64,000 nucleotides of DNA from Geminicoccaceae bacterium (lineage in GTDB: Bacteria > Pseudomonadota > Alphaproteobacteria > Geminicoccales > Geminicoccaceae): positions 124,001-188,000 of the forward strand of contig JANQPX010000030.1 in NCBI GenBank assembly GCA_028285265.1, in the 5' to 3' direction. The notes below the pieces were generated by a model that was not told the DNA's origin, searched no databases, and worked only from the letters and a program-made list of their open reading frames with translations. This document shows, one piece after another, positions 18,790-33,185 of the stretch. Both the position numbers and the translations under genes were made by a program. Position 1 is the stretch's first letter. Every line of letters begins with the position of its first letter.

Positions 18790-19293
18790 TCAGCTCCGCT
18801 GATCCCGTTCCAGGTGCTTTCGAAAGCTTCGCTCCAGACTTGCGCTGTTGCTTGGACCGACGAGAGTGTCTTGTCGTTCGCCCTTGCCATCAAAGAGGAG
18901 CAAGGTGACATGTTGTACACCGTGCTTGTTGGCCAGACGACGCCCCTTGTCCTGACGTATATTGGCGACGAGATATTGAAGCTCGCCGTCTTCGAATTGC
19001 TCCAATGCCTTGCGTGTTTCCTTTTGTAAGGCTTGGCAAACGGGACATTGCGGATCGTGGATCTGAACGATCGTGGGGATTCCGTTCCCAATCTTGCTGA
19101 GATCAGCTTCTTGGATCCCTGCTCGAACTTCGGAGACGACATACCACCCTATGCCGCCTACAGCTGCAATCGCCAATGCGCTGTTCCCGAAGCGGCTCAT
19201 AAAACCACGGCGGTCGGTCTGAACGTCTTTTGCCGCAGACTTTTTTCTCTGCTTGCCCGCATGTTTTTGCGATCGATTCTTCACCTTGGTCAC
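18790..19293 (-). CDS. Membrane-anchored thioredoxin-like protein
   Basis: A 167-residue protein with a very basic N-terminus, RRGFMSRFG and a hydrophobic segment (about residues 37-53), so it is either anchored with its domain in the periplasm or exported by Tat. The thioredoxin-like domain has CPVC at residues 83-86. The start is a GTG with GGAGG nine bases upstream. An ECF-type promoter (19332-19356) lies 39 bases upstream. Its likely role is thiol reduction or oxidation in the envelope; the partner is unknown. It is divergent from the DsbA-like gene. Confidence 0.75.
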   Translation of the reverse strand: MTKVKNRSQKHAGKQRKKSAAKDVQTDRRGFMSRFGNSALAIAAVGGIGWYVVSEVRAGIQEADLSKIGNGIPTIVQIHDPQCPVCQALQKETRKALEQFEDGELQYLVANIRQDKGRRLANKHGVQHVTLLLFDGKGERQDTLVGPSNSASLERSFRKHLERDQRS

Positions 19294-19331
19294 GTCTAAA
19301 GCCCTCCGGCATGGTCACGTCTAAGAGCTAT

Positions 19332-19356
19332 AACGAACGACCCGGCAAAAAGTTCG
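19332..19356 (-). promoter_or_regulatory. ECF-type promoter of the thioredoxin-like gene
   Basis: On the minus strand CGAAC (19356-19352), 16 bases, then CGTT (19335-19332). The base context GAACTTTTTGCC...CGTTATAG closely resembles the promoters at 19512, 21541, 23277 and 23476. It is placed so that a transcript would start about 32 bases before the GTG start codon. Confidence 0.65.
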
Positions 19357-19511
19357 CTGCAAATGCGAGTTTTCGTGGTGTCTTTATTGACGATACCGAT
19401 TTCAAGCCATCGTCCTACCATCTCTTCGTTTGTGGACGGCCTCCTCCCTTCGCCGATCATCGTTACGTGCGTACCATGAGGCTCCGTCAACATCTGGTAC
19501 CGAATTCATCC

Positions 19512-19536
19512 GGAACTTTTTCCATCGTGGTTCGTT
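19512..19536 (+). promoter_or_regulatory. ECF-type promoter of the DsbA-like gene
   Basis: GGAAC (19512-19516), 16 bases, CGTT (19533-19536): an exact match to GGAAC-N16-CGTT. The -35 is followed by TTTTT and the -10 by TCAAA. The expected transcript start is about 40 bases before the ATG at 19582. Confidence 0.7.
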
Positions 19537-19581
19537 TCAAATAGGTAACGCGCAATTGCTTGATGGTCTTTGGAGGACGCG

Positions 19582-20181
19582 ATGGGTTCAATCTCGAGAA
19601 GACAGCTCGGCTTTCTGACGGCTGGACTGGCATTGGCAGCCGGAACCAGCCGTTCATGGGCTACCGACGTTATTGAAACGGCAATCGGTGATCTGAATGC
19701 ACCGGTCACGATCATCGAATATTCGTCGTTGTCTTGCCCCCATTGTGCCAATTTCCACAACAACACCTATCCGGAGCTCAAGAAGCGCTACATCGATACC
19801 GGCAAAGTCCGGATGATTTTCCGAGACTTTCCGCTGAATCAGCCGGCAGTGCTGGCAACGGTCGTGGCGCATTGCGGTGGATCTGAGCGCTATGTCGGTT
19901 TCATCGATGTCATGTTCAAAACCCAGGCGACCTGGGCGCAATCTCACGATACGGTATCAGAGCTCAAGAAACTGGCCAGGCTTGGAGGGCTCCGGGAGGA
20001 ACAAGTCGACGCCTGTCTCAACGATCAAAGTCTTGTCGATCGTATTTTGAAAGGCCGCCTTGCCTGGCAACAGGAACATAAGGTGCAGTCGACGCCGACC
20101 TTCGTCATCAATGACGAAGTCTATCCTGGCAATCGAAGTATCGATGAGTTCGCAGCGATCATCGAGCCGCTGATCGGCTGA
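19582..20181 (+). CDS. DsbA-family thiol:disulfide interchange protein
   Basis: A 199-residue exported protein. SRRQLGFLTAG at residues 5-15 is a twin-arginine-like signal. The active site is CPHC (52-55) and the cis-proline loop reads STPTF near residue 173. Start chosen at the ATG preceded by GGAGG; an upstream in-frame start four codons earlier has no site. Known relatives oxidise or isomerise periplasmic thiols, and many bacteria pair such proteins with redox enzymes or cytochromes. It shares a promoter type with the nearby sigma and Aio-like genes. Confidence 0.88.
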   Translation: MGSISRRQLGFLTAGLALAAGTSRSWATDVIETAIGDLNAPVTIIEYSSLSCPHCANFHNNTYPELKKRYIDTGKVRMIFRDFPLNQPAVLATVVAHCGGSERYVGFIDVMFKTQATWAQSHDTVSELKKLARLGGLREEQVDACLNDQSLVDRILKGRLAWQQEHKVQSTPTFVINDEVYPGNRSIDEFAAIIEPLIG

Positions 20182-20236
20182 TCACCTAAAATCATACGTC
20201 GTGCAACTGTCGATTCTTTGAAGGGTTGGATGGCGT

Positions 20237-21523
20237 CTAGTATCGTGCTGCCAGCGGCGAGAAGGGAATGAAGTCACAGGTGTCGCCGGGTGCAAGCTCG
20301 CTCAGACCAGGTGGGAAGACTGCAAATCCGCTCGCTGAAGCAAGTGCTGAGATTCGCGCTGAGAAACCGGACTCGGCAACGGACAGAACTGGGGTGGGGC
20401 CAGCATAGCCAATAATTGTAGCTGGGCGGAATTCGACCCTGCCGGGTCGACGTTTTAGGCTAAAGTTCACTCTTGCCTGGATACGGATAGGAAGGCTGTC
20501 GCTGAAGCCGGCACGCCGTCTGAGCGTGCGTGCGCCAATCAGTGCAAAGGTCGTGAATACCGATACTGGGTTGCCAGGCAGGCCGAGAAAGATCGCAGCG
20601 CCAAGGCGGCCGACGGTAAGCGGCTTGCCGGGTTTCATCGCGACTTTGATGGCCGCCGATTCGCCGCCCAATTGTTCAAAGAGGCGGGGTAAGTAGTCCG
20701 CATCGCCGACCGACATGCCGCCCGTGGTGATGATTACATCAGCGGTCTTCGATGCTTTGGTAAGCGCGGAGGTCAGGCGGGTAATATCGTCAGGGATGGC
20801 GCCGTAATCTGTCAGGTTGATCCAGGGTTTGCTCAGATCGGCAAGCATGGCGTAACGGTTCGAATTGTAGATCTGACCGTCGCTAAGCGGGAAGCCTGGT
20901 TGGACCAGCTCCGAGCCGGTGCAGATCAGCGTGACCTCCAGCCTTCGCCGAACGGATACCGTGGTCCGACCGATGGCTGATAGCGCAGTAAGTTCGCGAG
21001 CGCCAATCTCGCGTCCTGGGTTGAGCAGCCTATCGCCAGGGCGTGCATCTTCGCCCCGGCGACGAATGTTGAGGCCCTCCTTTGGGGGCTCGGTGACGGT
21101 GATTGACTGTTCACCGCGTTCGACGTGCTCCTGCATAACGACGGCGTCAAAACCGGTCGGGATGGGAGCGCCAGTCATGATGCGCACAGCACCGTTATCC
21201 GAGATCCCATCGGGCTCATCGCCGGCCAAGAGGCAGTCGATGATCGGAAAGGTCCAGGGGCTGTCGCCGCTCAGTCTTCCAATCTGGAGGGCGTAACCGT
21301 CCATCGCCGCAGCGTCGAAGGGCGGCAGATCCATTGTTGCATCGACCGTTTCAGCAAGTGCTCGTCCAATGCTGCGCTCAATAGAGAGGTCTTCGACGTC
21401 CACGACTGGTTCGGCGATGTCGAGGGCCCGCTGAATAGCAGCATCAAGCGAAAGGAGTGTTTTGTCTGAGGAGGAACCGCGAGGAAACTCCTGATCTTGA
21501 AAGGCCGGTGAGGCTGATGTCAT
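20237..21523 (-). CDS. moeA: Molybdopterin molybdenumtransferase MoeA
   Basis: Inserts molybdate into adenylylated molybdopterin to give active Mo cofactor. The 428-residue protein has the MoeA N-terminal region DLPPFDAAAMDGYAL, GAPIPTGFDAVVMQEH, the MPT-binding TGSELV and TTGGMSVGDADY, then GLPGNPVSVF. Its own ECF-type promoter (21541-21566) lies just upstream. No other Mo-cofactor genes are visible here, but the molybdoenzyme operon starts 2 kb away and seems to share the promoter type. Confidence 0.95.
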   Translation of the reverse strand: MTSASPAFQDQEFPRGSSSDKTLLSLDAAIQRALDIAEPVVDVEDLSIERSIGRALAETVDATMDLPPFDAAAMDGYALQIGRLSGDSPWTFPIIDCLLAGDEPDGISDNGAVRIMTGAPIPTGFDAVVMQEHVERGEQSITVTEPPKEGLNIRRRGEDARPGDRLLNPGREIGARELTALSAIGRTTVSVRRRLEVTLICTGSELVQPGFPLSDGQIYNSNRYAMLADLSKPWINLTDYGAIPDDITRLTSALTKASKTADVIITTGGMSVGDADYLPRLFEQLGGESAAIKVAMKPGKPLTVGRLGAAIFLGLPGNPVSVFTTFALIGARTLRRRAGFSDSLPIRIQARVNFSLKRRPGRVEFRPATIIGYAGPTPVLSVAESGFSARISALASASGFAVFPPGLSELAPGDTCDFIPFSPLAARY

Positions 21524-21540
21524 CGTTCAATCAATCCGGT

Positions 21541-21566
21541 AACGCGACTTTGGCAAAAGAAGTTCG
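21541..21566 (-). promoter_or_regulatory. ECF-type promoter of moeA (17-base spacer)
   Basis: On the minus strand CGAAC (21566-21562), 17 bases, CGTT (21544-21541). The -35 side reads GAACTTCTTTTGCC, like the other sites. The expected start lies about ten bases before the moeA ATG, which leaves a very short leader. It is weaker than the others because the first base is C and the spacer is 17. Confidence 0.5.
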
Positions 21567-21590
21567 GTCAATGATCAGGCAGAAAAGGTA

Positions 21591-21646
21591 CGCTGGATCC
21601 CTGCGGCACCAATCAACTGGGAGGGCGTTGCTGCAGGGATCCGGCG
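21591..21646 (-). terminator. 18-bp stem hairpin after the anti-sigma gene
   Basis: CGCTGGATCCCTGCGGCA (21591-21608) pairs with TGCTGCAGGGATCCGGCG (21629-21646) with only G-U wobbles, around a 20-base loop. On the minus strand it is followed by TACCTTTTCTG. It lies between the end of the sigma/anti-sigma operon and the moeA promoter, so it would isolate the two transcripts. A binding site is an alternative reading. Confidence 0.5.
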
Positions 21647-21668
21647 TTAGCTAGGAGAGGCAAAGACT

Positions 21669-22574
21669 CTAGGCCTGGTCACCTAGCGCTGGGTTCGATC
21701 GGGCCGATGAGGGCCCATCGATCCGACCGAAATCCGCGATCGTTGAAGCGGTGCTATCCAAAGCTGCAACTTGGCTTCGCGCCAGGGCAGCCAGGAATAT
21801 CGACATATCCTGCTTCGGTATGTCAGAGACGACGGTATAGACCAGTTCACCCTTACGCCAGATCATCGTTCGCAAGCCATCAACCTCATGGGTAGACAGG
21901 CTGATACCGAGCTCCGGGTCGTAGGCGCTGCTGGGTAGGGCGATGTCATGCGCCGTCATGACGTAGACGGCGAGCGACTGGTCGCCCCGCCGATAGGAAA
22001 AGGCGCTCAAACGGCGCTCAAGAAGCCAGCAGAGCCGACCACCAACCAGTTCGAAGCCCGCGACCTTGGCCTCGAGCTTGGGGGCTTCGAAGGTTAGCCG
22101 GCTGGCGAACCAGCTTCGGATGGTTGTTGGATCGCGGCTCGCAATATCCAGGTTACGGCCACTATCGCGATAGGTCGAGAAGTCATGGATGGGCGCAGCG
22201 ATGATCGAGTTTGCCGGTTTCATCCACTGCCATGTCAAACCCGCTGGCAACGCTATCATGATGAGTAGCGAGGCCGCCATGGCCATCTGCCAGACAGGCT
22301 GATTGTACCAGGCCTTCGATTGAGTTGGACGATGATCATCTAGACTTTCGGGCAGGCGCACTTCGATCCGCTTCCAGAGGTCACTCGGCGCTTTGACATC
22401 GCTGAGGCCGGCCTTAATCGTTCTGTTCAACGTCCGAAGATCCTCGACGCTTTGGCGACAAGTCGCGCAATGGTCGAGATGATCGCTGATCATCCTTTTT
22501 TCGTCAGCGCTGCACTCGCCATCGACGAAGGCTTCGAGATCGTAGGTGTTCTTGTTGCAAGGCATCGTAAGCAT
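21669..22574 (-). CDS. Membrane anti-sigma factor with zinc-finger-like domain
   Basis: A 301-residue protein whose N-terminus has the anti-sigma zinc motif H-x3-C-x2-C (His32, Cys36, Cys39). One membrane segment follows at about 93-115, and a 185-residue domain follows outside. This is the layout of an ECF anti-sigma that holds its sigma at the membrane and senses an envelope signal. It lies five bases after the sigma gene. The signal is unknown; Cys residues near the motif would allow redox sensing, but this is inference. Confidence 0.82.
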   Translation of the reverse strand: MLTMPCNKNTYDLEAFVDGECSADEKRMISDHLDHCATCRQSVEDLRTLNRTIKAGLSDVKAPSDLWKRIEVRLPESLDDHRPTQSKAWYNQPVWQMAMAASLLIMIALPAGLTWQWMKPANSIIAAPIHDFSTYRDSGRNLDIASRDPTTIRSWFASRLTFEAPKLEAKVAGFELVGGRLCWLLERRLSAFSYRRGDQSLAVYVMTAHDIALPSSAYDPELGISLSTHEVDGLRTMIWRKGELVYTVVSDIPKQDMSIFLAALARSQVAALDSTASTIADFGRIDGPSSARSNPALGDQA

Positions 22575-22579
22575 TCCCG

Positions 22580-23188
22580 TTAGAACAACGATACCACACG
22601 GGGACTGGTCGTCGTGTCGTGGTGCTCTTTTGCTCTCCGCTCGAGAGTGAGATCGAGCTTTCGCTGAAGATGTTTGCGCGCCCGGTGCAGCTTGGATCTC
22701 ACCGTACCGATCGGCAGATCCAAGCTTTCCGCGGCCTCGTCGTAGGACATCCCTTCGATCAGAATCAAGACAACAACGGCTCTGGGTTCAGGCGCCAATG
22801 TTGCAAGGGCGTCTATGAGAGCCTGTTGTGTGTCGCTGCGCATCGCCTGAACTTCTGGGTTGTCGGCACAGCGATCACTCGACTGGAAGCCTTCGCCTTC
22901 TGCAGGAGCCACGTCGATCGGCACCATTGAGATGGCGGCGTTTCGACGGATGTGATCGATGCAGAGATTGGCGAGAATGCGAAACAGCCAGGCCTTGAAG
23001 TTGGTGTCATGTCGATAACGGGCGAAGTTGGCGTAGGCTTTCAGGCAAGTCTCCTGGACGATGTCTTCGGCAACGGCGTGATCATGGGTCATGCGCAAAG
23101 CGGTTCGGTAGAGACCGTCCAGATGTTGCTGCGCTAACTGGACGAACAGCTTTCGAGATCCTTGCTTTCCCGATGAATCACTCACCAA
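22580..23188 (-). CDS. ECF RNA polymerase sigma factor
   Basis: A 202-residue sigma-70-family regulator with region 2 (DHAVAEDIVQETCLKAY, then FKAWLFRILANLCIDHIRR) and region 4 (LATLAPEPRAVVVLI and MSYDEAAESLDLPIGTVRSKL, the helix-turn-helix). No receiver-type extra domain is seen. It is co-transcribed with its anti-sigma and preceded by an ECF-type promoter (23277-23301), which suggests autoregulation. It is divergent from the Aio-like operon, whose promoter has the same form. Confidence 0.9.
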   Translation of the reverse strand: MVSDSSGKQGSRKLFVQLAQQHLDGLYRTALRMTHDHAVAEDIVQETCLKAYANFARYRHDTNFKAWLFRILANLCIDHIRRNAAISMVPIDVAPAEGEGFQSSDRCADNPEVQAMRSDTQQALIDALATLAPEPRAVVVLILIEGMSYDEAAESLDLPIGTVRSKLHRARKHLQRKLDLTLERRAKEHHDTTTSPRVVSLF

Positions 23189-23276
23189 AAGTATCCTGCC
23201 TAGAAGACGACGTCTTAAAAGTGTGTACGTTGCTACAGCCCTGATCCTGAGGCCAAGTCACGTTTTCAATCTCTAA

Positions 23277-23301
23277 AACGAACCTGCCGCCAAAAAGTTC
23301 T
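23277..23301 (-). promoter_or_regulatory. ECF-type promoter of the sigma/anti-sigma operon
   Basis: On the minus strand AGAAC (23301-23297), 16 bases, CGTT (23280-23277), followed by TTAGA. One mismatch to GGAAC. The flanking sequence GAACTTTTT...TTCGTTTTAG is nearly the same as that of the Aio-like promoter on the other strand. The leader of about 80 bases also holds the short palindrome AAGACG-A-CGTCTT (23204-23216). Confidence 0.65.
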
Positions 23302-23475
23302 CAAAAAATGAGGAATTCGCTTATTGCGATGATTGGTGCGGGAGATTCGATAGAGTCAGAGTCTTTATCATATTCTGTAACTCATTGAAAAATATAAGTT
23401 TGATGTGATTTTTCGAAGGTTATCGGAGGCCTGAGCCATCTGAAGATTAGAATTCGAAAAAATTTACCATGGTAC

Positions 23476-23500
23476 GGAACTTTCTCCCGAGGCCTTCGTT
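23476..23500 (+). promoter_or_regulatory. ECF-type promoter of the Aio-like operon
   Basis: GGAAC (23476-23480), 16 bases, CGTT (23497-23500), an exact match to GGAAC-N16-CGTT. The expected transcript start is near 23507, before GGGAG (23522-23526) and the GTG at 23535. This also argues that an ATG at 23469 cannot be the real start, because it lies upstream of the promoter. The general stress sigma EcfG of alphaproteobacteria recognises the same core, so it is an alternative user. Confidence 0.7.
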
Positions 23501-23534: not shown

Positions 23535-24101
23535 GTGACAGTTCTAGACAATCAAAATTCGAGTGAAGACATACTTCCATGCATGCGCCGACGCGAGTTG
23601 CTGATGGCCAGTGCCGTCGGGGCAACGGCGGCGACGTTGGCGCCTGGCGTGACCATGGCAGCGACTGAGGGTGGGGCTGGCACCTATCCGCGTCTCTCCG
23701 TGATCAGGATGAGTGATCTCATTGAGGGCGAGCCGGTCGCGTTCAGCTACCCGCTCGAAGAACAGCCCAACATGATCGTCAAGCTGGGAACGCCGGCACA
23801 AGGCGGCGTCGGGCCGGATGAGGACATCGTCGCGTTCAGCGTGCTCTGCACCCATATGGGCGGCAGTTTGCGTGGCAAATACAACCACGAATTCAAGTCG
23901 ATGGGCCCGTGCCCGTTCCATTTCTCGACCTTCGACCTGACCAAGAGCGGCGCGATTGTGCATGCCAGCGCTACCCAACATCTACCGCAGGTGAAGCTCG
24001 AAGTGGACGGCGATGATGTGATCGCCGTCGGCATGAACGGCCTTGTCTATGGCTACCGCGACAATCTCAAGGACGGCTCGCCTGTCGTCATGCAGGGCTG
24101 A
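23535..24101 (+). CDS. Rieske 2Fe-2S subunit of an Aio-like oxidase
   Basis: Small subunit of an arsenite-oxidase-family enzyme, passing electrons from the Mo subunit to a cytochrome. The 188-residue protein starts at a GTG eight bases after GGGAG. A twin-arginine signal (MRRRELLMAS, 17-26) would also carry the large subunit out. The Rieske cluster is Cys105-x-His107 and Cys126-x2-His129. The two extra Cys that form a disulfide in bc1-type Rieske proteins are Gly110 and Phe128 here. It is followed 35 bases later by the large subunit. Confidence 0.85.
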   Translation: MTVLDNQNSSEDILPCMRRRELLMASAVGATAATLAPGVTMAATEGGAGTYPRLSVIRMSDLIEGEPVAFSYPLEEQPNMIVKLGTPAQGGVGPDEDIVAFSVLCTHMGGSLRGKYNHEFKSMGPCPFHFSTFDLTKSGAIVHASATQHLPQVKLEVDGDDVIAVGMNGLVYGYRDNLKDGSPVVMQG

Positions 24102-24136: not shown

Positions 24137-26773
24137 ATGGCGAAACGAAACGATCTTTCTGAGAAACAAGCGGTTAGCCGGCGGGGTCTGCTGCTCGCGC
24201 AGCGCAGCCCCTCGATCGACTATGGTGTCTACCAACCGGCGGTCGACGAGGTGCCGGTGCCGCCTGCGGATGCCGAGGTGCATCCCACAGCCTGCGAATA
24301 CTGCATCGTCGGCTGTGGCTACAAGGCCTACACCTGGCCGGTGGACAAGGAGGGCGGCCCGAAGGCGGATCAAAACGTGTTCGGAAAGGACTATCCGATC
24401 AAACCGGCGAGCGGCAATTGGGCCAGCCCGGAAATGCACAGCATCGTCCGCAAGGACGGCGAGCTGCACAACCTGCTGGTCATTCCCGATGGCGAGACCG
24501 CCGTCAATCGGAAGGGCAATCACTCCGTGCGCGGCGGCCGTTCCGCTCAAAAGCCCTACAGCCCAAACCGACCGACCTCGGACCGCCTGCAGGCACCAAT
24601 GGTGCGCGTGAACGACACGTTGCAGGCGATCTCTTGGGAGGACGCCACCTCGATCATTGCCGAGCTTTCACAATATGCGATCGAAAAGGAGGGCCCGAAC
24701 GCGTTTGGCATGCGCTACTACTCCTATCAGTTCTGGGAGAACACGTTTGCGCTGACCAAGCTGATCTACAAGAACATCGGGACAGCGGTCGGTGCCGAGC
24801 ATGACAAGCCGACGGCTTCCAACGACGCAACCGGTCTTGATGACTGCGGCGTCGACGGCTTCTCGACCTCCTACTCCGACTTCCAGCAGGCCGACGTGAT
24901 CTTCATGTCCGGCTTCGACCCTTACGAAAACCAGACGATCCTGTTTACTGAGTGGATTGCCCCTGGCGGTGCCAAGATCATCTTCGTCAACCCGCGAAAG
25001 AGCCCGACCGCGGTTTATGCGGAGCGGAACGGCGGCCTGCACCTGCAGGTGCAGCCGAACACCGACACGGTCCTGAACAACGCCATCCAGCGCTACATCA
25101 TCGAGCAAGGCTGGGAGGATCGTGAGTGGATCGATCGGATGACGGTCAGCCGCGACGACATCGAATCCGAAGACCCCAAGCACTGGCGCCGCCGGTCGTT
25201 CGGTCAGACCTTCGAAGAGCATAAGGCCTGGCTGCTTTCCGACGACACCTACACGCTTGAAAACGCTGAGCGCATCACCTGGGTGCCGAAGGAAAAGATC
25301 ATCAAGGCAGCCGAGATGCTCGCGCGGCCGCGTGGCAAGCTGCGGACCAAGGCGGCTTTCATGCTAGAGAAGGGCAATTATTGGTCCTTCAACTTCCCGG
25401 CCAGTGCGTCCCTTTCCTCACTCGGTCTGGTCTGCGGCGCTGGCAGCCGGCCCGGTCATAATATGAGCCGCGCTGGCGGTCATCAGCGCGGCGGCATGAA
25501 GGCGGCGGGTTATCCGCTGAAGAAATCCTGGGTGAAATCGAAGCACGGCCGCCAGGGCGAGAACGCCCTGATGCCGGTGAACTTCGATGAATATGCCATG
25601 TCCGGCAAGCTCAAGGTCGCCTGGATCCTCGGCACCACCTGGCTCGACTCGATGAACGCCGCCCAGGCCATCCGGCTGAAGCTGGGCGAGATGACCAGGA
25701 AGCATCCGATCTATCCGGAAAGCCTGGACAAGAATGCAATCGTCGAGGCGTTCAAGCGGCGCATGGACGACGGTGGCATGTTTCTGATCCAGCAGGACAT
25801 CTTCCCGAACTCGCTGACCCAGTTTGCCGACATCGTGCTGCCTGCTGCAACCTGGGGCGAGGTCGACTTCGCACGCGCCCAAGGCGAGCGCCGCCTCCGC
25901 ATCTACTCGCGCTTCAATGATGCGCCGGGTGACGCAAAGCCCGACTGGTGGATCATTGCCCAGGTCGCCAAGAAGATGGGTTACGAGGGCTTCGATTGGG
26001 AAGAGTCCAACGACGTCTTCGAAGAGGCGGCAATGAAGTCCGAGGGTGGTCACTATGACGCCTCCAACCTGGTACGCATTGCCCGGGAAAAGGGCATGAA
26101 GACTCACGAGCTTCTGCGTGAGATGAGCACCACGGGCATTCAGCTGCCCGCCCGTATCGTCAATGGCGAACTCAAGGGAACGCTTCGTCTGCACGACGAG
26201 ACCTTCCCCGCTGAAGAGGTCGACACCGCGCCCAAGATCGTAAAGCAATTCAAGACCGCGAGTGGCAAAGCGATCTTCATGAAGGGCGACTGGGACCTAG
26301 TGAAGGACACCTTCGAGCAGTTCCGTCCGCAAGGGGACGAGCTTTGGGTTTCGAATGGCCGGATCAACCACATCTGGCAGTCCATGTATGACGACGCGAG
26401 GAATCCCTTCGTCAAATCGCGCTATCCCTCGAACTTCCTAATGATCAATCCGGCGGACGCTGAACCGCGCGGCATCGAAAGTGGCGATCTGGTCACGGTC
26501 GAGAACGACAAGGTGCTGAACCAGCTCGGCGAGATGTCCCGTGGTGTTGTCTCCCTCGTCGCCTACGTCACCGACGAGGTGGGCGAGGGTGTTACCTACA
26601 CCTACGCCTTCTATCCCGGCCAATCCGCCGACCTTGTCGTGCCCGCCGTCACCGACCCGGTGACCGGCGTCTACAACTACAAGATCGGCAAGGGCGTGGT
26701 GAAGAAGTCAGGCGAGACGCCGCTCAAGTCGGTCGATGGCAGCATGTCCTTCATTCCACGGACAGTCGGTTGA
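24137..26773 (+). CDS. Aio-family molybdopterin oxidoreductase, catalytic subunit
   Basis: An 878-residue DMSO-reductase-superfamily enzyme, closest by eye to arsenite oxidase AioA (usually about 820-850 residues). The 3Fe-4S motif is Cys53-x2-Cys56-x3-Cys60 (CEYCIVGCGY), with a Ser (HSVRGG, Ser130) where AioA has Ser rather than a fourth Cys. SRAGGHQ (Arg445, His449) matches the Arg and His that help bind arsenite in AioA. In contrast, the region 223-261, where AioA has its His and Glu ligands, holds neither His nor Glu (Thr232 at the His position). The substrate is therefore open. It is exported with the Tat-signalled Rieske subunit. Confidence 0.9.
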   Translation: MAKRNDLSEKQAVSRRGLLLAQRSPSIDYGVYQPAVDEVPVPPADAEVHPTACEYCIVGCGYKAYTWPVDKEGGPKADQNVFGKDYPIKPASGNWASPEMHSIVRKDGELHNLLVIPDGETAVNRKGNHSVRGGRSAQKPYSPNRPTSDRLQAPMVRVNDTLQAISWEDATSIIAELSQYAIEKEGPNAFGMRYYSYQFWENTFALTKLIYKNIGTAVGAEHDKPTASNDATGLDDCGVDGFSTSYSDFQQADVIFMSGFDPYENQTILFTEWIAPGGAKIIFVNPRKSPTAVYAERNGGLHLQVQPNTDTVLNNAIQRYIIEQGWEDREWIDRMTVSRDDIESEDPKHWRRRSFGQTFEEHKAWLLSDDTYTLENAERITWVPKEKIIKAAEMLARPRGKLRTKAAFMLEKGNYWSFNFPASASLSSLGLVCGAGSRPGHNMSRAGGHQRGGMKAAGYPLKKSWVKSKHGRQGENALMPVNFDEYAMSGKLKVAWILGTTWLDSMNAAQAIRLKLGEMTRKHPIYPESLDKNAIVEAFKRRMDDGGMFLIQQDIFPNSLTQFADIVLPAATWGEVDFARAQGERRLRIYSRFNDAPGDAKPDWWIIAQVAKKMGYEGFDWEESNDVFEEAAMKSEGGHYDASNLVRIAREKGMKTHELLREMSTTGIQLPARIVNGELKGTLRLHDETFPAEEVDTAPKIVKQFKTASGKAIFMKGDWDLVKDTFEQFRPQGDELWVSNGRINHIWQSMYDDARNPFVKSRYPSNFLMINPADAEPRGIESGDLVTVENDKVLNQLGEMSRGVVSLVAYVTDEVGEGVTYTYAFYPGQSADLVVPAVTDPVTGVYNYKIGKGVVKKSGETPLKSVDGSMSFIPRTVG

Positions 26774-26790
26774 GAACAGGGAGCGACCTG

Positions 26791-27549
26791 ATGAAGACTT
26801 TCATGACGACAACGGCGCTCTCGGTAGCCGGCGCGGCCGTCCTGGCCATGGGAATCTCTGAACAGAGCCTCGCCCAATCCGCGGTACAGGAGGCGACCGA
26901 CGAACTCCTGGCACTCGGCGAGAAGACCTATATGCGCGAATGCGTGGCATGCCACGGTGCCGAGGGCGATGGCGAGGGGCCGGGCAAATACATCCTGAGT
27001 GAGAAGCCGAGGAACTTCCAGCTCGCCACCTATAAGTTCCGTTCGACGCCGAGCGGCGACGTGCCGTTGCCTGAGGATCTGTTCAAGACCATCACCAACG
27101 GGCTTCAAGGAAACGGTGCCGCGATGCCGGCTTTCGCCTCTCTTTCCGAGGACGAGCGCTGGGGGCTGGTGCATTACATCATCCAGCTTGGCGGCATCGA
27201 GGACGAAGAGCCGGAGGCGATCGAAGTGCCGGCGGAGCCTGAAATCACTGAAGCCAGGCTGGCGAACGGGGCGGACGTCTATAACCGTCTCAAATGCGCC
27301 ACCTGCCACGGCGATGACGGCTGGGGTGACGGTCCGTCCTCTTTGACGCTCAAGAATGATGCCAAGGAGCAGGTTTATCCGACCAATATCGCGATCGGCA
27401 TCTTCAAGGGCGGCACCAGTGGCGTGGAGCTCTATAAACGGATCGCCACCGGTCTCGACGGTTCGCCCATGCCATCTTACGCCGACGAAGCGTCGCCGGA
27501 CGAGATCTGGGACGTCGTCCATTACACGCTGAGCCTGGTCGAAAAGTAG
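26791..27549 (+). CDS. Dihaem cytochrome c
   Basis: A 252-residue periplasmic electron carrier with a signal peptide (about residues 1-29) and two c-type domains: CVACH (51-55) with a later MPAF methionine, and CATCH (169-173) with PMPSY. AGGGAG lies before the ATG, 17 bases after the molybdoenzyme stop. It is the obvious acceptor for electrons from the Rieske subunit. The two domains closely resemble the last two domains of the CcoO fusion at 31446-33185 (shared PRNF, YKFRST, SGSPMPSY-like stretches). Confidence 0.93.
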   Translation: MKTFMTTTALSVAGAAVLAMGISEQSLAQSAVQEATDELLALGEKTYMRECVACHGAEGDGEGPGKYILSEKPRNFQLATYKFRSTPSGDVPLPEDLFKTITNGLQGNGAAMPAFASLSEDERWGLVHYIIQLGGIEDEEPEAIEVPAEPEITEARLANGADVYNRLKCATCHGDDGWGDGPSSLTLKNDAKEQVYPTNIAIGIFKGGTSGVELYKRIATGLDGSPMPSYADEASPDEIWDVVHYTLSLVEK

Positions 27550-27618
27550 AGCGGGGCAATCCGATCTGATCAGGTGTCGAGGATACGCGTCCAAAATGAG
27601 CAAAAAGGAAAACGCGGA

Positions 27619-28356
27619 ATGAAGGCGAGCACATTCACGATGGCCTTGGTCGCGAGCACGGCCCTGGCCGCGACTGCGGCCGAGGCCAAATACAAAGAGA
27701 CCGAGGTCACCGACGGCGGCAGCGTTCAGGGTGCTGTTATGTTCGACGGGGCCGCTCCCGACCTGCCTCTCGCGGAGATCGCCAAGGACAACGAGGTCTG
27801 TGGCGACGGTAGTGTCATTCCCAATCCAGTAACGATCGGCGCAGGCGGCGAGCTTGAAGGTGTGGTGGTCTATCTGGAGGAGGTCAACGAGGGCAAAGCC
27901 TGGCCGGAGCAGGAGTACGTTCTGGACCAGCAGGAATGTGCTTTTGAGCCCTATCTACAGGTGGTGCCGAAAGGCGTCGAAATGACGATAAAGAACAGTG
28001 ATCCCGTCTTGCACAATGTGCATCCCTTCGAGATCGTCGGCGACAAGCGGCGCACACTTTTTAACTTGGCCCAGCCACAGCAGGATCAGGTCAACACCAA
28101 GAAGATCAAAACGCGCAGAGGTAAGGCGGTCGAGCTTGCCTGTGACGCCCACGCTTGGATGGCCGGCTGGCTCTATGTTCTGGAGCACCCATACTACGCC
28201 GTGGTCGGCGCCGATGGCACGTTCGAGATCGGCGACATCCCGCCCGGTGACTATAATCTGGTTGCCTGGCATCCAGTTCTCGGCACCCAGGAACAGGATA
28301 TCCAGATTGCCGCCGGCGGTGCTGCGGACGCGTCGTTCCAATTCATCGGCAACTGA
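27619..28356 (+). CDS. Cupredoxin-like secreted protein
   Basis: A 245-residue protein with a signal peptide. The C-terminal half has HNVHPFE (132-138) and CDAHAWM (Cys175, His178, Met181), which together fit a type-1 copper site His...Cys-x2-His-x2-Met. It resembles plastocyanin-like proteins annotated as methylamine-utilisation or carboxypeptidase-regulatory-like; the final part (IPPGDYNLVAWHPVLG) matches that fold. AAGGAA precedes the ATG. It may be a second electron carrier of the cluster; copper binding is inferred. Confidence 0.75.
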   Translation: MKASTFTMALVASTALAATAAEAKYKETEVTDGGSVQGAVMFDGAAPDLPLAEIAKDNEVCGDGSVIPNPVTIGAGGELEGVVVYLEEVNEGKAWPEQEYVLDQQECAFEPYLQVVPKGVEMTIKNSDPVLHNVHPFEIVGDKRRTLFNLAQPQQDQVNTKKIKTRRGKAVELACDAHAWMAGWLYVLEHPYYAVVGADGTFEIGDIPPGDYNLVAWHPVLGTQEQDIQIAAGGAADASFQFIGN

Positions 28357-28398
28357 CCCGTAAGGCTTTGTAGAGTACCGCAACTTTGTGTTGAGGGA

Positions 28399-28461
28399 GC
28401 AGTGGGTCGAAGACGGTCCAGGCCCAAGTTTGACCCGCTGCTTTCCATCCCACGTTTTTTT
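28399..28461 (+). terminator. Hairpin with T-run between the carrier genes and the oxidase genes
   Basis: GCAGTGGGTC (28399-28408) pairs with GACCCGCTGC (28432-28441) with one G-U pair; seven T bases follow at 28455-28461. The 13-base distance to the T-run is long for a classic terminator. It could act as a partial terminator, giving more transcript of the molybdoenzyme genes than of the oxidase genes. Confidence 0.4.
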
Positions 28462-28501
28462 GAAATTCGGGCACCAATTACCATGAGGGGCGGCCAGTCG
28501 C

Positions 28502-29443
28502 ATGAATGCGATCACTCACATCCTACTGACGAAAGCCGCGAGGATAGGCGCGGTCGCTACAGTCGCTTTCGGCTTTCCGTCAGGTGCGGCCTTGGCCTCC
28601 GACGATGTCGAAACAGTGCTCAAATCCTATCTGCGCGCCCTTTACAGCCGTGACGCACAAACAGCTTACGAACGCCTCTCGTCGATGGATCATTCCATCA
28701 AGACATTTGATGAGTATGCGCAGGAGGTCGGCGCGTTTGACGGCCCTGCGCTGGTCGTCGCCAAAGCACTCGCCGAGCAGATCGACTTCGGTGCCTTTGA
28801 GATCGAAGAGGCGGACGATCACGTCGACGTTACCTTCGACGTCACCCTTCCCAATGCCAACGATCCCGCCATCAAGGAGATGATGCGCAGCTTTGACGCC
28901 AAACGGCTGAGCGAACTGACGCCGTCAGAGATCGAGACGCTGATGGCCGACATCGAGACGATGCGTTTGACCGGTGGGCTTCCCGTGCTCGAATCCGAGG
29001 GCGAGCGCTGGTCGCTGGTGCGCGAAGGCGATCAGTGGCGCGTTTTCGAGAACTGGGCAGAGGCGGTCGAGGTCCGTTTCGATGCCGCGACCTTCCACGA
29101 TTTGCCATGGGAATTCGAGCCCGTGCGCACGCGCGTGATGGCGAAGCATGGTGAAACCATCCAGATGGCCTATCGCGCCAGGAATGTCGGCGACGAAGAG
29201 ATCACGGCGAAGGCACGGCACATCATTGGACCGGACGACGATGCCGATTTTCTCGACATCATTTCCTGCTTCTGTTTCCTCGAAGAGACCCTGGCGCCGG
29301 GCGAAGCGACCGAGTTGAGTCTGGTCTTCAGGGTGGACTACGAGGCGCCCGACGACGCCACGGCCTTCACTGTCAAGTACGAATTCTATCCGGCCGAGCG
29401 CTTTCCCGAGGTCGAGCAAGCCCATGCGCGGGGCCAGCGCTGA
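28502..29443 (+). CDS. Secreted protein: NTF2-like region fused to a Cox11/CtaG domain
   Basis: A 313-residue protein. Residues 1-33 are a signal peptide, and about 34-185 form a region with the feel of an NTF2-like or SnoaL-like fold (LKSYLRALYSRDAQTAYERL, then GDQWRVFENW). Residues about 200-305 match Cox11: LPWEFEPVRT, GETIQMAYRARN, and the copper-binding CFCF (256-259) followed by LAPGEATEL. Normal Cox11 is anchored by a membrane helix and delivers copper to the CuB site; here the helix is replaced by this other domain. AGGGG lies before the ATG. It overlaps the next gene by one base. Confidence 0.8.
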   Translation: MNAITHILLTKAARIGAVATVAFGFPSGAALASDDVETVLKSYLRALYSRDAQTAYERLSSMDHSIKTFDEYAQEVGAFDGPALVVAKALAEQIDFGAFEIEEADDHVDVTFDVTLPNANDPAIKEMMRSFDAKRLSELTPSEIETLMADIETMRLTGGLPVLESEGERWSLVREGDQWRVFENWAEAVEVRFDAATFHDLPWEFEPVRTRVMAKHGETIQMAYRARNVGDEEITAKARHIIGPDDDADFLDIISCFCFLEETLAPGEATELSLVFRVDYEAPDDATAFTVKYEFYPAERFPEVEQAHARGQR

Positions 29444-29964
29444 TGCCTGCCTTCGGCCCGAAAGCGCGGCTTTTCGCGGCGATCGTTTTCTTGGCGCTGT
29501 CGACTGCCGCTTGGGCGAGCGGGCCGATGGGCGACCTTGAGGTGCGCGTCACCGACCACAAGCCTGGCATCGATCAGTTTAGCGCGCTCGATGTCACGCT
29601 TAAGGCAGTCGCTTTGCATGAAAAAGGGCAAGGGCGTCGCGAAGGCTGGCGGGACATCGCTGGGCCGTCACCGGCGATCGACATCGTCCCGCTCAAGGAC
29701 GGCGTCTACGAATCGTTGGGCTCCGTCCGTGTGCCGACCGGCGCCTATGACGCCGTCGCCGTCCGTTTCGACAAGGTCGACGGTGAGCTGAAGTCCGACT
29801 ACGAGCCGACCATCTGGCTCGAGGATGCGATCGTTCGCATCGACCTTGCCATCACCGAGCAGGAGAACTTGCCGCTGGTCGTCGATCTCTATGCCGAAGA
29901 CCAGACCGAGCATGATCCGCCACGCTATGTCGTCAAGGTTAAGGAGGTGCGTCTCGGTGAGTAA
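29443..29964 (+). CDS. Secreted DUF4382-like protein
   Basis: A 173-residue protein with a signal peptide ending near AAWASG. The body is beta-rich (GDLEVRVTDHKPGIDQFSALDVTLKAVALHEKG) and resembles DUF4382, a periplasmic family of unknown role. No cysteine pair or haem motif is present. It overlaps the Cox11-domain gene (TGATG) and precedes ccoN by 35 bases. A role in assembling or stabilising the oxidase is suggested by position only. Confidence 0.6.
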   Translation: MPAFGPKARLFAAIVFLALSTAAWASGPMGDLEVRVTDHKPGIDQFSALDVTLKAVALHEKGQGRREGWRDIAGPSPAIDIVPLKDGVYESLGSVRVPTGAYDAVAVRFDKVDGELKSDYEPTIWLEDAIVRIDLAITEQENLPLVVDLYAEDQTEHDPPRYVVKVKEVRLGE

Positions 29965-29999
29965 TGCCGCCGCGCGCCCGTCAGGGGAAAGAAGAGTGC

Positions 30000-31433
30000 A
30001 TGTCTAACGCAGCCGCAATGCCGACGATGAACTCACAGGAACTGGATGATCTCGTCGACAGACCGCTTGTCCGAAAGTGGCTGCTGACCGGCATGTTCTG
30101 GCTCATGTTCGGGCCGACCGTCGGCGCCGTCATCTCCACCTTCTTCAACTACCCCGACTATATGGGCACGGCGCTGGAGCTGCAGTTCGGTCGCCTTCGC
30201 CCGCTGCATGTGAACGGCGTGATCTTCGGCGCCTTCTCCACGCTGTTCATCGGCCTTTGCTACTACGTCGTGCCGCGCCTCTGCGGCGTGCGCGTCGTCT
30301 GGGAGGATTGGGCCCACCGTCTTTGCTGGATCTGGAACCTGACGCTCGCCGCCGGCATGGTGTCGCTCGCTTTCGGCTACAACCAAGGTCTCGAAGCAGG
30401 CGAGTTTCCGTTCTTCGTCGATCTCGTCATCTTTGTCGCGATCACCTTTCTTTGCGCGCAATTCCTGGTAACTACGGCGAACCGCAAGGAGCCGCAGCTC
30501 TACGTTTCCATGTGGTATCTACTCGCCGGCTTTGTCTGGACCGTGATGACGATGATTCTGGGCTCGTTCATCCTGCCCTACTTCATCTCCGGCATCTCGA
30601 GCGCCGCCTTCCACGGCCTCTATATCCACTACATCGTCGGTCTCTGGATCACGCCCGCTGGCTACGTCCTCATCTACTACTTCCTGCCGGCAGCCGTGCA
30701 GAACCCGATCTACAGCCACAAGCTCTCCCTGGTCGGCTTCTGGTCGCTTGCCCTCTTCTACCCCTTCGTCGGCATTCACCACTATCTCTACTCGCCGATC
30801 GCGGATTGGGCGGAGACGCTGGCGATCATCACCTCCATGCTGCTGATCATCCCTGTCTGGACCGTGCTCCAGAATTTTTTCGGGACGATGATCGGCCGCT
30901 GGCGCGACTTCGGCAAGAACCTGCCGGCCAAGTTCTTCATCATGGGCTCGATCATGTATCTGATCGGCTGCTTCCAGGGCTCGACCGAGGCGCTGCGCTC
31001 GATCCAGGAGCCGACCCACTTCACTGACTTCGTGATCTCGCACTCCCACCTCACGATCTTCGGCACCTTCGTGGTCTGGGCGGTGGGTGGCCTGGTTTAT
31101 GTCTGGCCGAAAATCCACGGCCGCGAACTCTGGTCGTTCAAGGCGGGCAACTGGTCGTTCTGGCTGATTACGTTAGGCATCAGCACCATGGGCATCGTGC
31201 TGACCGCGCAAGGCCTGCAGCAGGGTTACATGTGGATGGCTGGCGTCGAGTGGATGGACTCGCTTGTACCGCTCAAGGCGTTCTGGTTCACCCGCACCGT
31301 CGCGGGAATCATCATGGATCTCGGCATGACGCTGCTGGTCTACAACCTGATCCGCACCGCGATGCCTGAAGAGTCGGTCTCACCTGAGACCACCGGGACC
31401 GCGTCGCCTGTGCCATCTCCCGCGACTGCCTAG
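30000..31433 (+). CDS. ccoN: cbb3-type cytochrome c oxidase subunit I (CcoN)
   Basis: Catalytic haem b / haem b3-CuB subunit of a cbb3-type oxidase, reducing O2 to water. The 477-residue protein starts at an ATG preceded by GGGGAAAGAAG. It has about 12 membrane helices. Ligands are visible: His70, His210 (YIHYIVGLW), His260-His261 (GIHHY), His348 and His350 (SHSH). The catalytic Tyr of the cbb3 class lies six residues before the HH pair (Tyr254). The gene lies inside the Aio-like block, 35 bases after the DUF4382-like gene. Confidence 0.94.
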   Translation: MSNAAAMPTMNSQELDDLVDRPLVRKWLLTGMFWLMFGPTVGAVISTFFNYPDYMGTALELQFGRLRPLHVNGVIFGAFSTLFIGLCYYVVPRLCGVRVVWEDWAHRLCWIWNLTLAAGMVSLAFGYNQGLEAGEFPFFVDLVIFVAITFLCAQFLVTTANRKEPQLYVSMWYLLAGFVWTVMTMILGSFILPYFISGISSAAFHGLYIHYIVGLWITPAGYVLIYYFLPAAVQNPIYSHKLSLVGFWSLALFYPFVGIHHYLYSPIADWAETLAIITSMLLIIPVWTVLQNFFGTMIGRWRDFGKNLPAKFFIMGSIMYLIGCFQGSTEALRSIQEPTHFTDFVISHSHLTIFGTFVVWAVGGLVYVWPKIHGRELWSFKAGNWSFWLITLGISTMGIVLTAQGLQQGYMWMAGVEWMDSLVPLKAFWFTRTVAGIIMDLGMTLLVYNLIRTAMPEESVSPETTGTASPVPSPATA

Positions 31434-31445
31434 CGAGTAGAAACA

Positions 31446-33185
31446 ATGCTTACTATGAACCTCAGAACGGTCTCGCTGGTCGCCGGTTTCGGCTTCGTCA
31501 CGCTCGCGACCTTCACCCAGGGCGTTCTGCCGATGCTCGAGCCGCAAACGCTGACCGACAAGGTGACCCGCGTGGTGCGCACCGATCTCGGTGAGCTGAA
31601 ATGGATAGAAGCCCAGGCGGTCGACTACACGCCCGAAGAACAGATGGGCCGGGACATCTATATCCGCGAGGGCTGCTGGTACTGCCATTCGCAATATGTC
31701 CGTCCGGTCACCGGAGAGACGCTGCGCTGGGGGCCGATCACCCAGGCCGGTGAGTATGCCTATGATACACCACATCTTTTCTCGACACGGCGCATCGGCC
31801 CCGACCTTTCGCGTGTGGGTCTGAAATATTCGGACGAGTGGCACTATGCCCACTTTTGGGATCCGCGCATGATCATCCCGGAGTCGATCATGCCGCGTTT
31901 TATGAAGCTGTTCGATGCGCCCGAAGAACCTGTGGCCGTGGTCGACGGTCCGGATGGTCTCAAGACCGTCGAGCAGAATGAGGTCACCGAGGCCATTTTC
32001 GACTTTTCCAAAGCCGGAGATGCGGCTGCACATCTCAAGATTACCCCCAATCAAGACGGCCTCTTGTTTGTACCGGAGCGCGGAAAATATCCCGTGATCT
32101 GGACACCGAACGATGAGTTCACTGGAGACAACGTCGAGCTTGCCGTGGTGACCGAGGAACTGACGTCGCTGGTCGCCTATCTGCAAAAGCTCGGCATGAA
32201 TCGTGGCAAATGGCGCGATGTGTTCGCCTCGCAGACCGCGGATATCAGCCAGGTGAGCTTGGAAAGAGATGAGGAGTGGATCGGGCTTGGGCGGAAGGTC
32301 TATGACCGCCGCTGCGCTGGCTGCCACGGCGTCGAAGGAGACGGCAATGGCCCGGCGGCGACTTTCACCTACCGGGACCGTCCGCGCAATTTCAACCAGG
32401 CTGTGTTCAAATTCCGATCGACGGGCTCCGACTCGCTGCCGACCGATGGTGATCTGCTGCGAACTTTGGTGAGAGGCGTTCGCGGCACGTCGATGCCAGC
32501 CTGGCACATGCTGTTGGAGAAGGAACGCCAAGCGGTCATTCAATATATCAAATACGAACTGGCCGTGGATCGCTCGGATCCTGAAGATCCTTATGTGATC
32601 TTCGAAGAGGAGGAGCCTGAGGAGCCCATCCATATAGCCCGTGCGCCCGAACCCGACGAGGACATGATCGCCGAAGGCCAGGAGATCTGGCAGCAGGCCA
32701 AGTGCTGGGAGTGCCATGGCGAGACTGGCAAAGGCGATGGCCCGAAGTCTGTAGGCTTGAAGGACGACAACAAGTTTCTGATCTGGCCTGCCGATCTGAC
32801 CACTGGTCAGTTCAAATCAGGACCGTCCGTGCGGGATATGTTCCGCACGATCTCCAATGGACTGAGTGGATCGCCGATGCCGTCTTACTCGGACTCGTTT
32901 GACGAAGATGAGCGCTGGGCGCTTGCTTACTACGTGATGTCGCTTTCCTCCTTTACCGATCCCTTGAGCCGCAAGCCGCTCGTCATCGACGACGCCGATC
33001 GCGACGCACTGAACGATCCTGATCTTGAGGCGCGTCGATCAGAAGACGCTTACAAGCCGGAGAAGGCCATCGCCGACTCGAACACGCGCTATGGCGGGAA
33101 TGCCTGGGCGAAGCGGCGCGGTATGGAGGTTATCGGCGATGCGAATGCCGACGAGACACGGACGTTTGAGATCAAGCAGCAATGA
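31446..33185 (+). CDS. CcoO fused to a dihaem cytochrome c module
   Basis: A 579-residue membrane protein. Residues 1-250 match CcoO: an N-terminal helix, CWYCH (77-81), SQYVRPVTGET, RIGPDLSRVG, DPRMIIPESIMP. Two further c-type domains follow, CAGCH (290-294) with GTSMPAWH and CWECH (420-424) with SGSPMPSY. In usual cbb3 oxidases the two extra haems sit on CcoP, a separate subunit. Here they are on the same chain as CcoO. The C-terminal tail (about 500-579) is hydrophilic and unlike known domains. Confidence 0.9.
   Translation: MLTMNLRTVSLVAGFGFVTLATFTQGVLPMLEPQTLTDKVTRVVRTDLGELKWIEAQAVDYTPEEQMGRDIYIREGCWYCHSQYVRPVTGETLRWGPITQAGEYAYDTPHLFSTRRIGPDLSRVGLKYSDEWHYAHFWDPRMIIPESIMPRFMKLFDAPEEPVAVVDGPDGLKTVEQNEVTEAIFDFSKAGDAAAHLKITPNQDGLLFVPERGKYPVIWTPNDEFTGDNVELAVVTEELTSLVAYLQKLGMNRGKWRDVFASQTADISQVSLERDEEWIGLGRKVYDRRCAGCHGVEGDGNGPAATFTYRDRPRNFNQAVFKFRSTGSDSLPTDGDLLRTLVRGVRGTSMPAWHMLLEKERQAVIQYIKYELAVDRSDPEDPYVIFEEEEPEEPIHIARAPEPDEDMIAEGQEIWQQAKCWECHGETGKGDGPKSVGLKDDNKFLIWPADLTTGQFKSGPSVRDMFRTISNGLSGSPMPSYSDSFDEDERWALAYYVMSLSSFTDPLSRKPLVIDDADRDALNDPDLEARRSEDAYKPEKAIADSNTRYGGNAWAKRRGMEVIGDANADETRTFEIKQQ

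Follow-up and report, generated by a model that had tools for sequence, protein, structure and literature searches.

The 64,000-nucleotide window analysed here (positions 124,001 to 188,000 of contig JANQPX010000030.1, from a Geminicoccaceae bacterium) carries, between 18.8 and 23.6 kb, genes for an extracytoplasmic function (ECF) sigma factor and its anti-sigma factor, a thioredoxin-like protein, a DsbA-like protein and an additional moeA, together with the start of an operon encoding a Rieske/molybdopterin enzyme. Before every transcription unit that begins in this interval stands a correctly oriented GAAC-N16/17-CGTT site, and these five sites are, judging from the sequence, very probably the promoters of one small, local and autoregulated ECF regulon. 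The sites and the genes of the cluster are:

19332 to 19356, minus strand: predicted promoter of the thioredoxin-like gene, CGAAC-TTTTT..GTT-CGTT, N16
19512 to 19536, plus strand: predicted promoter of the dsbA-like gene, GGAAC-TTTTT..GTT-CGTT, N16
21541 to 21566, minus strand: putative promoter of moeA, CGAAC-TTCTT..TCG-CGTT, N17, the weakest of the five, with a leader of only ~10 nt
23277 to 23301, minus strand: predicted promoter of the sigma/anti-sigma operon (predicted autoregulation), AGAAC-TTTTT..GTT-CGTT, N16
23476 to 23500, plus strand: predicted promoter of the Rieske/molybdoenzyme operon, GGAAC-TTTCT..CTT-CGTT, N16
18790 to 19293, minus strand: thioredoxin-like protein with a CPVC motif and a membrane or export signal (PF13098, PF00085)
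19582 to 20181, plus strand: DsbA-like protein with a CPHC motif and a signal sequence (PF13462)
20237 to 21523, minus strand: moeA, an extra paralogue (MoeA_N/MoCF/MoeA_C)
21669 to 22574, minus strand: anti-sigma factor (zf-HC2) with an N-terminal zinc-type domain, a predicted membrane helix and a periplasmic domain like the RseB/MucB C-terminal domain
22580 to 23185, minus strand: ECF sigma factor with a GTG start, a TTG at 23188 being possible

The initial annotation of this stretch had reported five copies of the motif before these genes, and every coordinate and orientation is confirmed, its intervals covering the core plus one additional 5′ base; the bare cores themselves lie at 19332-19355 (minus), 19513-19536 (plus), 21541-21565 (minus, N17), 23277-23300 (minus) and 23477-23500 (plus). 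The sequence context it described also stands, as GAACTT followed by a T-rich run occurs in all five sites and TTCGTTT in three, with the shorter TTCGTT in four, whilst the spacer is 16 nt in four sites and 17 nt at moeA. Each site points toward its own gene and lies 18-92 nt 5′ of the start codon, where start codons follow our own reading of the sequence and its open-reading frames: from CGTT the gap is ~39 nt to the thioredoxin-like gene (GTG 19293), 46 nt to dsbA (ATG 19582), 18 nt to moeA (ATG 21523), 92 nt to the sigma gene (GTG 23185) and 35 nt to the Rieske gene (GTG 23535). A short direct repeat, GGTCACGTCTAA, is present in two copies at 19287-19325, between the promoter and start codon of the thioredoxin-like gene, with a tiny open-reading frame (MPEGF) in between.

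The bare core occurs at background level both in the window, where seven matches compare with 4.3 expected and 15 of 100 shuffles reach seven, and across the 8.5 Mb genome (603 matches, against 953 for a reversed-pattern control); we therefore discarded it as evidence of a regulon. The extended form GAACTT-N14/15-CGTT, searched genome-wide as a fixed pattern like the bare core, is found 45 times in the genome (the reversed control gives 63), or once per 189 kb, and five of the 45 fall in a single 4.2 kb stretch inside the window where 0.02 would be expected, a ~250-fold over-representation with P about 2e-11, or about 5e-8 once corrected for how many such windows there are, both values being post hoc in that the extension was derived from the five sites themselves. 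Almost all of the other 40 lie within reading frames and only a few are intergenic; the best-looking of the latter (C13:111248, L010/L079) lies 270 nt from an open-reading frame of unclear nature and was not adopted as an extra regulon member. In the whole-genome motif search that the initial annotation had proposed as a check, the bare core is frequent, whilst the extended form is rare, clustered here and elsewhere mostly intragenic.

Because the extension had been read from the sites, we sought a test free of post hoc bias in relatives, which were obtained by searching GTDB contigs with the molybdopterin subunit. This search yielded two distant relatives, a Hyphomicrobiales metagenome-assembled genome (L038) and an Alphaproteobacteria metagenome-assembled genome (L039), whose molybdopterin subunits are 79-80% identical to that of the window, and in both a sigma/anti-sigma pair lies immediately upstream of the Rieske gene. 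A site equivalent to that before the window's sigma gene precedes the sigma gene in each relative (L038:7619, GAACTTTTTTTGGCCTGCTTCGTT; L039:2832, GAACTTTTCCTCGTCATTGTCGTT), and in L039 a further site, similar to that of the window, precedes the Rieske gene (4532, GAACCTTCTTTGCCCGGTGTCGTT). The extended pattern totals 29 and 7 in the genomes of L038 and L039, respectively, and a chance match within 150 nt on the correct strand has a probability of about 2e-4 to 3e-4 per relative genome. A matrix trained on these three foreign sites alone, scanned over about 128,000 positions of the window, placed the Rieske, dsbA, sigma and thioredoxin sites at ranks 1, 2, 3 and 4, with the moeA site outside the top 10; therefore we regard four of the predicted sites as strong and that of moeA as probable. 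In L039 this sigma/anti-sigma pair is itself preceded, immediately upstream, by another ECF pair (534-2119), whose promoter lacks the motif as judged by pattern.

Several observations count against the reading of the five sites as one regulon or limit its reach. The foreign sites number only three, from two genomes. Whereas the neighbouring enzyme is 80% identical, the sigma factor shares only 44-45% and the anti-sigma factor 28-29% identity with its counterparts, which falls short of establishing the pairs as strict orthologues. Searches of class and phylum samples for further members of the enzyme clade yielded only enzymes of 45-49% identity, so conservation rests on three genomes; nearly all of these enzymes whose flanks could be read sit in idr loci, and those loci yielded no ECF gene (one contig being too short to read), and the anti-sigma gave only 22-30% matches in a plasmid collection. 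No convincing site precedes the dsbA homologue found in one relative (L127, genome of L038) or the moeA homologues of both (L129, L130), and the window's own moeA site has a different spacer (N17), an unfavourable -10 context and a leader of minimal length, with a leave-one-out score below some non-sites (listed 11th). The assembly also holds 15 further sigma-type genes, any of which may recognise the motif. Separately, two rpoD-like and two rpoH-like genes were noticed on contigs C48, C74, C31 and C79 of the assembly (8.5 Mb, 6.95% contamination), which may be mixed or paralogue-rich, and in a frame of more than 800 aa (L123, C62:366712) a low-complexity N-terminal part is joined to an ECF-like sigma domain and to what looks like an anti-sigma region with a membrane span. 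In another genome, GAACCTTTCGGAGATGAGAGCGTT stands before an idr peroxidase gene (L118:6465) and may be a chance match.

Since the dsbA and moeA homologues of the relatives carry no convincing site, the conserved part of the regulon would be the sigma gene and the molybdoenzyme operon, and the thiol and moeA units seem to have been added locally, unless their lack of conservation has other reasons. Within the same genome, a second dsbA copy on C74 (65% identical) and two further moeA copies (31-35% identical) are without a site. The proposal that thiol redox, molybdenum cofactor insertion, the sigma factor and the molybdoenzyme are joined in one switch is supported for the sigma and molybdoenzyme operons, given the clustering and placement of the sites and the presence of the site before the corresponding sigma gene in two other genomes, whilst thiol and moeA membership is proposed from this genome alone. 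We consider the prediction of a local regulon well supported and its breadth, specific to this genome so far, plausible.

The sigma factor (201 aa) matches PF04542 (Sigma70_r2) and PF08281 (r4_2), and thus has regions 2 and 4 but lacks region 3; among PDB sequences, Mycobacterium tuberculosis SigH and SigE chains come nearest to it. The anti-sigma gene is adjacent, 5 nt away, and probably co-transcribed. Its product shows the HxxxCxxC pattern with an upstream Cys (C6, H32, C36 and C39, invariant in four homologues), and in an AlphaFold model (mean pLDDT 64.8, with good prediction limited to approximately residues 121-270 and a weaker N-terminal domain) the N-terminus resembles RsiW and RslA (Z 6.8) and residues 152-271 the C-terminal domain of RseB/MucB (Z 9.5). 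By ligand pattern and modelled fold the protein is of the zinc-associated anti-sigma (ZAS) type, with zinc binding predicted. An Rfam scan of the region gave no match.

The operon that begins with the Rieske gene comprises:

23535 to 24101, plus strand: Rieske small subunit with a Tat-type signal, above the cut-off of TIGR02694
24137 to 26773, plus strand: molybdopterin large subunit (TIGR02693), in a clade sister to IdrA in our tree
26794 to 27549, plus strand: di-haem c-type cytochrome (family scan)
27616 to 28356, plus strand: exported protein of carboxypeptidase-regulatory-like fold, also retained in both L038 and L039
28502 to 29443, plus strand: CtaG/Cox11-domain protein (family scan)
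30000 to 31433, plus strand: cbb3-type (CcoN-like) oxidase subunit I (family scan)
31446 to 33185, plus strand: CcoO-like subunit fused to c-type cytochrome domains, named from sequence features and not from the family scan

This gene order is kept in L038. The initial annotation had called the enzyme Aio-like, and the large subunit indeed passes the curated cut-off of TIGR02693 ('arsenite_ox_L'), but in the tree it forms with its L038 and L039 counterparts a separate group that is split from the four AioA rows at 100/100, and so does not group with AioA. Nor does it fall within IdrA, the group being sister to it, and there is no idrP1/idrP2 peroxidase gene in the window or in the L038 operon. 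Downstream of the operon in L039 (9475-10626), and there alone among the three genomes, lies an idrP-related gene that resembles di-haem cytochrome c peroxidases. As far as the tree and the gene content indicate, this is a rare, three-genome molybdoenzyme clade sister to IdrA, its operon (24137-33185) having its own cytochromes and cbb3-type oxidase; the cytochrome, Cox11-like and CcoN/CcoO-like genes suggest that a substrate in the periplasm is oxidised and its electrons are passed to oxygen.

The nearest known arrangements are RpoE4/SMc04050/sorT (ECF26) of Sinorhizobium meliloti and SigE/sorAB of Starkeya novella. These likewise combine a local ECF sigma, a co-transcribed anti-sigma, an adjoining periplasmic molybdenum enzyme with its cytochrome and a very small regulon, and in both the enzyme's substrate is the inducer, with autoregulated local ECF control of a molybdenum enzyme documented for RpoE4-sorT (PMC3511301, PMC6527743). 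They differ in that their enzyme is a sulfite oxidase unrelated to that of the window, in that their promoter is GGAAT / CGTC (PMC6527743) and in that their reported targets include no thiol genes or moeA. Promoters of the ECF26 (RpoE4 type) class have a -35 of GGAATA and a -10 of GT type (PMC6180224), and the sites of the window, with GAACTT and CGTT, do not fit this class as judged by promoter sequence. The aio and idr operons share with the window the Rieske and molybdopterin subunits of the same superfamily, and moeA/glp stands beside some aio operons; however, several annotated examples have AioR or sigma-54-type regulators and two have ArsR-type regulators, and idr operons have two cytochrome c peroxidases where the window operon has none. 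A search of the accessible literature for arsenite oxidase linked with an ECF sigma found no paper. M. tuberculosis SigH/RshA and Streptomyces SigR/RsrA resemble the window system in promoter, in the zinc-type anti-sigma domain and in having redox-homeostasis genes among their targets; they differ in that the window anti-sigma crosses the membrane and extends a domain into the periplasm, RsrA being soluble, and in that the window regulon is centred on a molybdoenzyme.

In the mechanism that we infer for the local regulon, the ECF sigma (22580-23185) would recognise nGAACTT(T-rich)-N16-CGTT and drive its own operon, the adjacent Rieske/molybdoenzyme/cytochrome/cbb3-type-oxidase operon, the thioredoxin-like gene and the dsbA paralogue, and less surely the moeA paralogue. 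The co-transcribed anti-sigma would hold the sigma through its cytosolic zinc-type domain, whilst spanning the membrane and bearing the RseB-like domain on the periplasmic side. The sigma would be freed by a signal from the periplasm, probably the substrate of the enzyme or damage caused by it, and the enzyme would then be made along with helpers for periplasmic disulfides and molybdenum cofactor insertion.

A wider alternative is that the sites are promoters of the EcfG general stress response of Alphaproteobacteria, the cluster being a single part of a stress regulon that extends across the genome. The initial annotation had equated the core with the EcfG consensus, and the core does agree, with GAAC and CGTT in all five sites, with the Rhizobium etli EcfG1 motif GGAAC-N16-CGTT (PMC3892343). 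The EcfG role does not follow: the leading G (GGAAC) is present in two of five sites only, the M. tuberculosis SigH consensus GGAAYR-N17-GTT (PMC4803200) is very similar, so the core is not diagnostic of EcfG, and a core that is not rare carries little weight by resemblance alone. For NepR, no PF18557 match at E 0.1 was found in the 98%-complete assembly although the Caulobacter control was positive; for PhyR, the PF22029 matches were ECF sigmas or a fused protein, none of them with a receiver, and the larger open-reading frames of five other ECF neighbourhoods held no PhyR, absence of either gene not being proved by a draft of this completeness. The window system is moreover local and not global, with a core that is not enriched genome-wide, a T-rich extension, a membrane-bound zinc-type anti-sigma and a site conserved together with the local sigma. 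EcfG control is very unlikely. A chance or compositional origin of the cluster could draw on the frequency of the bare core and on an extended pattern defined only after the sites were seen, but we hold it to be extremely improbable given the over-representation of that pattern and an independently trained matrix that puts four of the sites at its first four ranks.

Two narrower alternatives concern the extent of the regulon and its signal. In the first, genuine promoters are confined to the sigma and Rieske sites, perhaps with those of the two thiol genes, and the moeA site arose by chance: to its N17 spacer and ~10 nt leader are added the lack of TT preceding CGTT, the lowest score of the five and its place outside the foreign-trained top 10. 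We find this rather doubtful, as GAACTTCTT and CGTT are both present there, suitably placed and oriented, inside a 4.2 kb cluster, the extended pattern is met only once per 189 kb, and this moeA is an extra paralogue adjoining a molybdoenzyme operon, much as moeA/glp genes adjoin aio operons. As to the signal, the anti-sigma might sense thiol oxidation at its zinc site in the manner of RsrA, RshA or RslA, which would make the regulon a response to disulfide stress and not to a substrate. The SigH chains nearest to the sigma and the similar SigH motif fit this, as do the invariant C6-H32-C36-C39, the two thiol-disulfide proteins among the targets and the precedent of RslA, a redox-sensitive membrane ZAS protein (PMC2877774). 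Yet the zinc motif is also known from anti-sigma factors in which its role is structural, for example ChrR, the anti-sigma here additionally spans the membrane and carries an RseB-like domain in the periplasm, and the target conserved in relatives is the molybdoenzyme, not the thiol genes, which leaves thiol sensing unlikely.

For the local regulon as a whole, we tentatively suggest, as a possibility somewhat short of probable, that the IdrA-sister clade runs oxidatively with its own cytochromes and cbb3-type oxidase, that it is switched by a local ECF sigma and not by a sigma-54 system, that its membrane anti-sigma senses a periplasmic signal through the RseB-like domain, and that in this genome a DsbA, a thioredoxin-like protein and a MoeA of its own have been drawn under the same switch. 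If so, the signal that frees the sigma would point to the substrate of this rare molybdoenzyme, for which the five promoters would be a ready reporter. In one lineage the AioA/IdrA superfamily would then be controlled by an ECF sigma, even though several of the aio/idr neighbours annotated are sigma-54-type regulators, and a local sigma could recruit extra copies of dsbA and moeA as enzyme-specific helpers.

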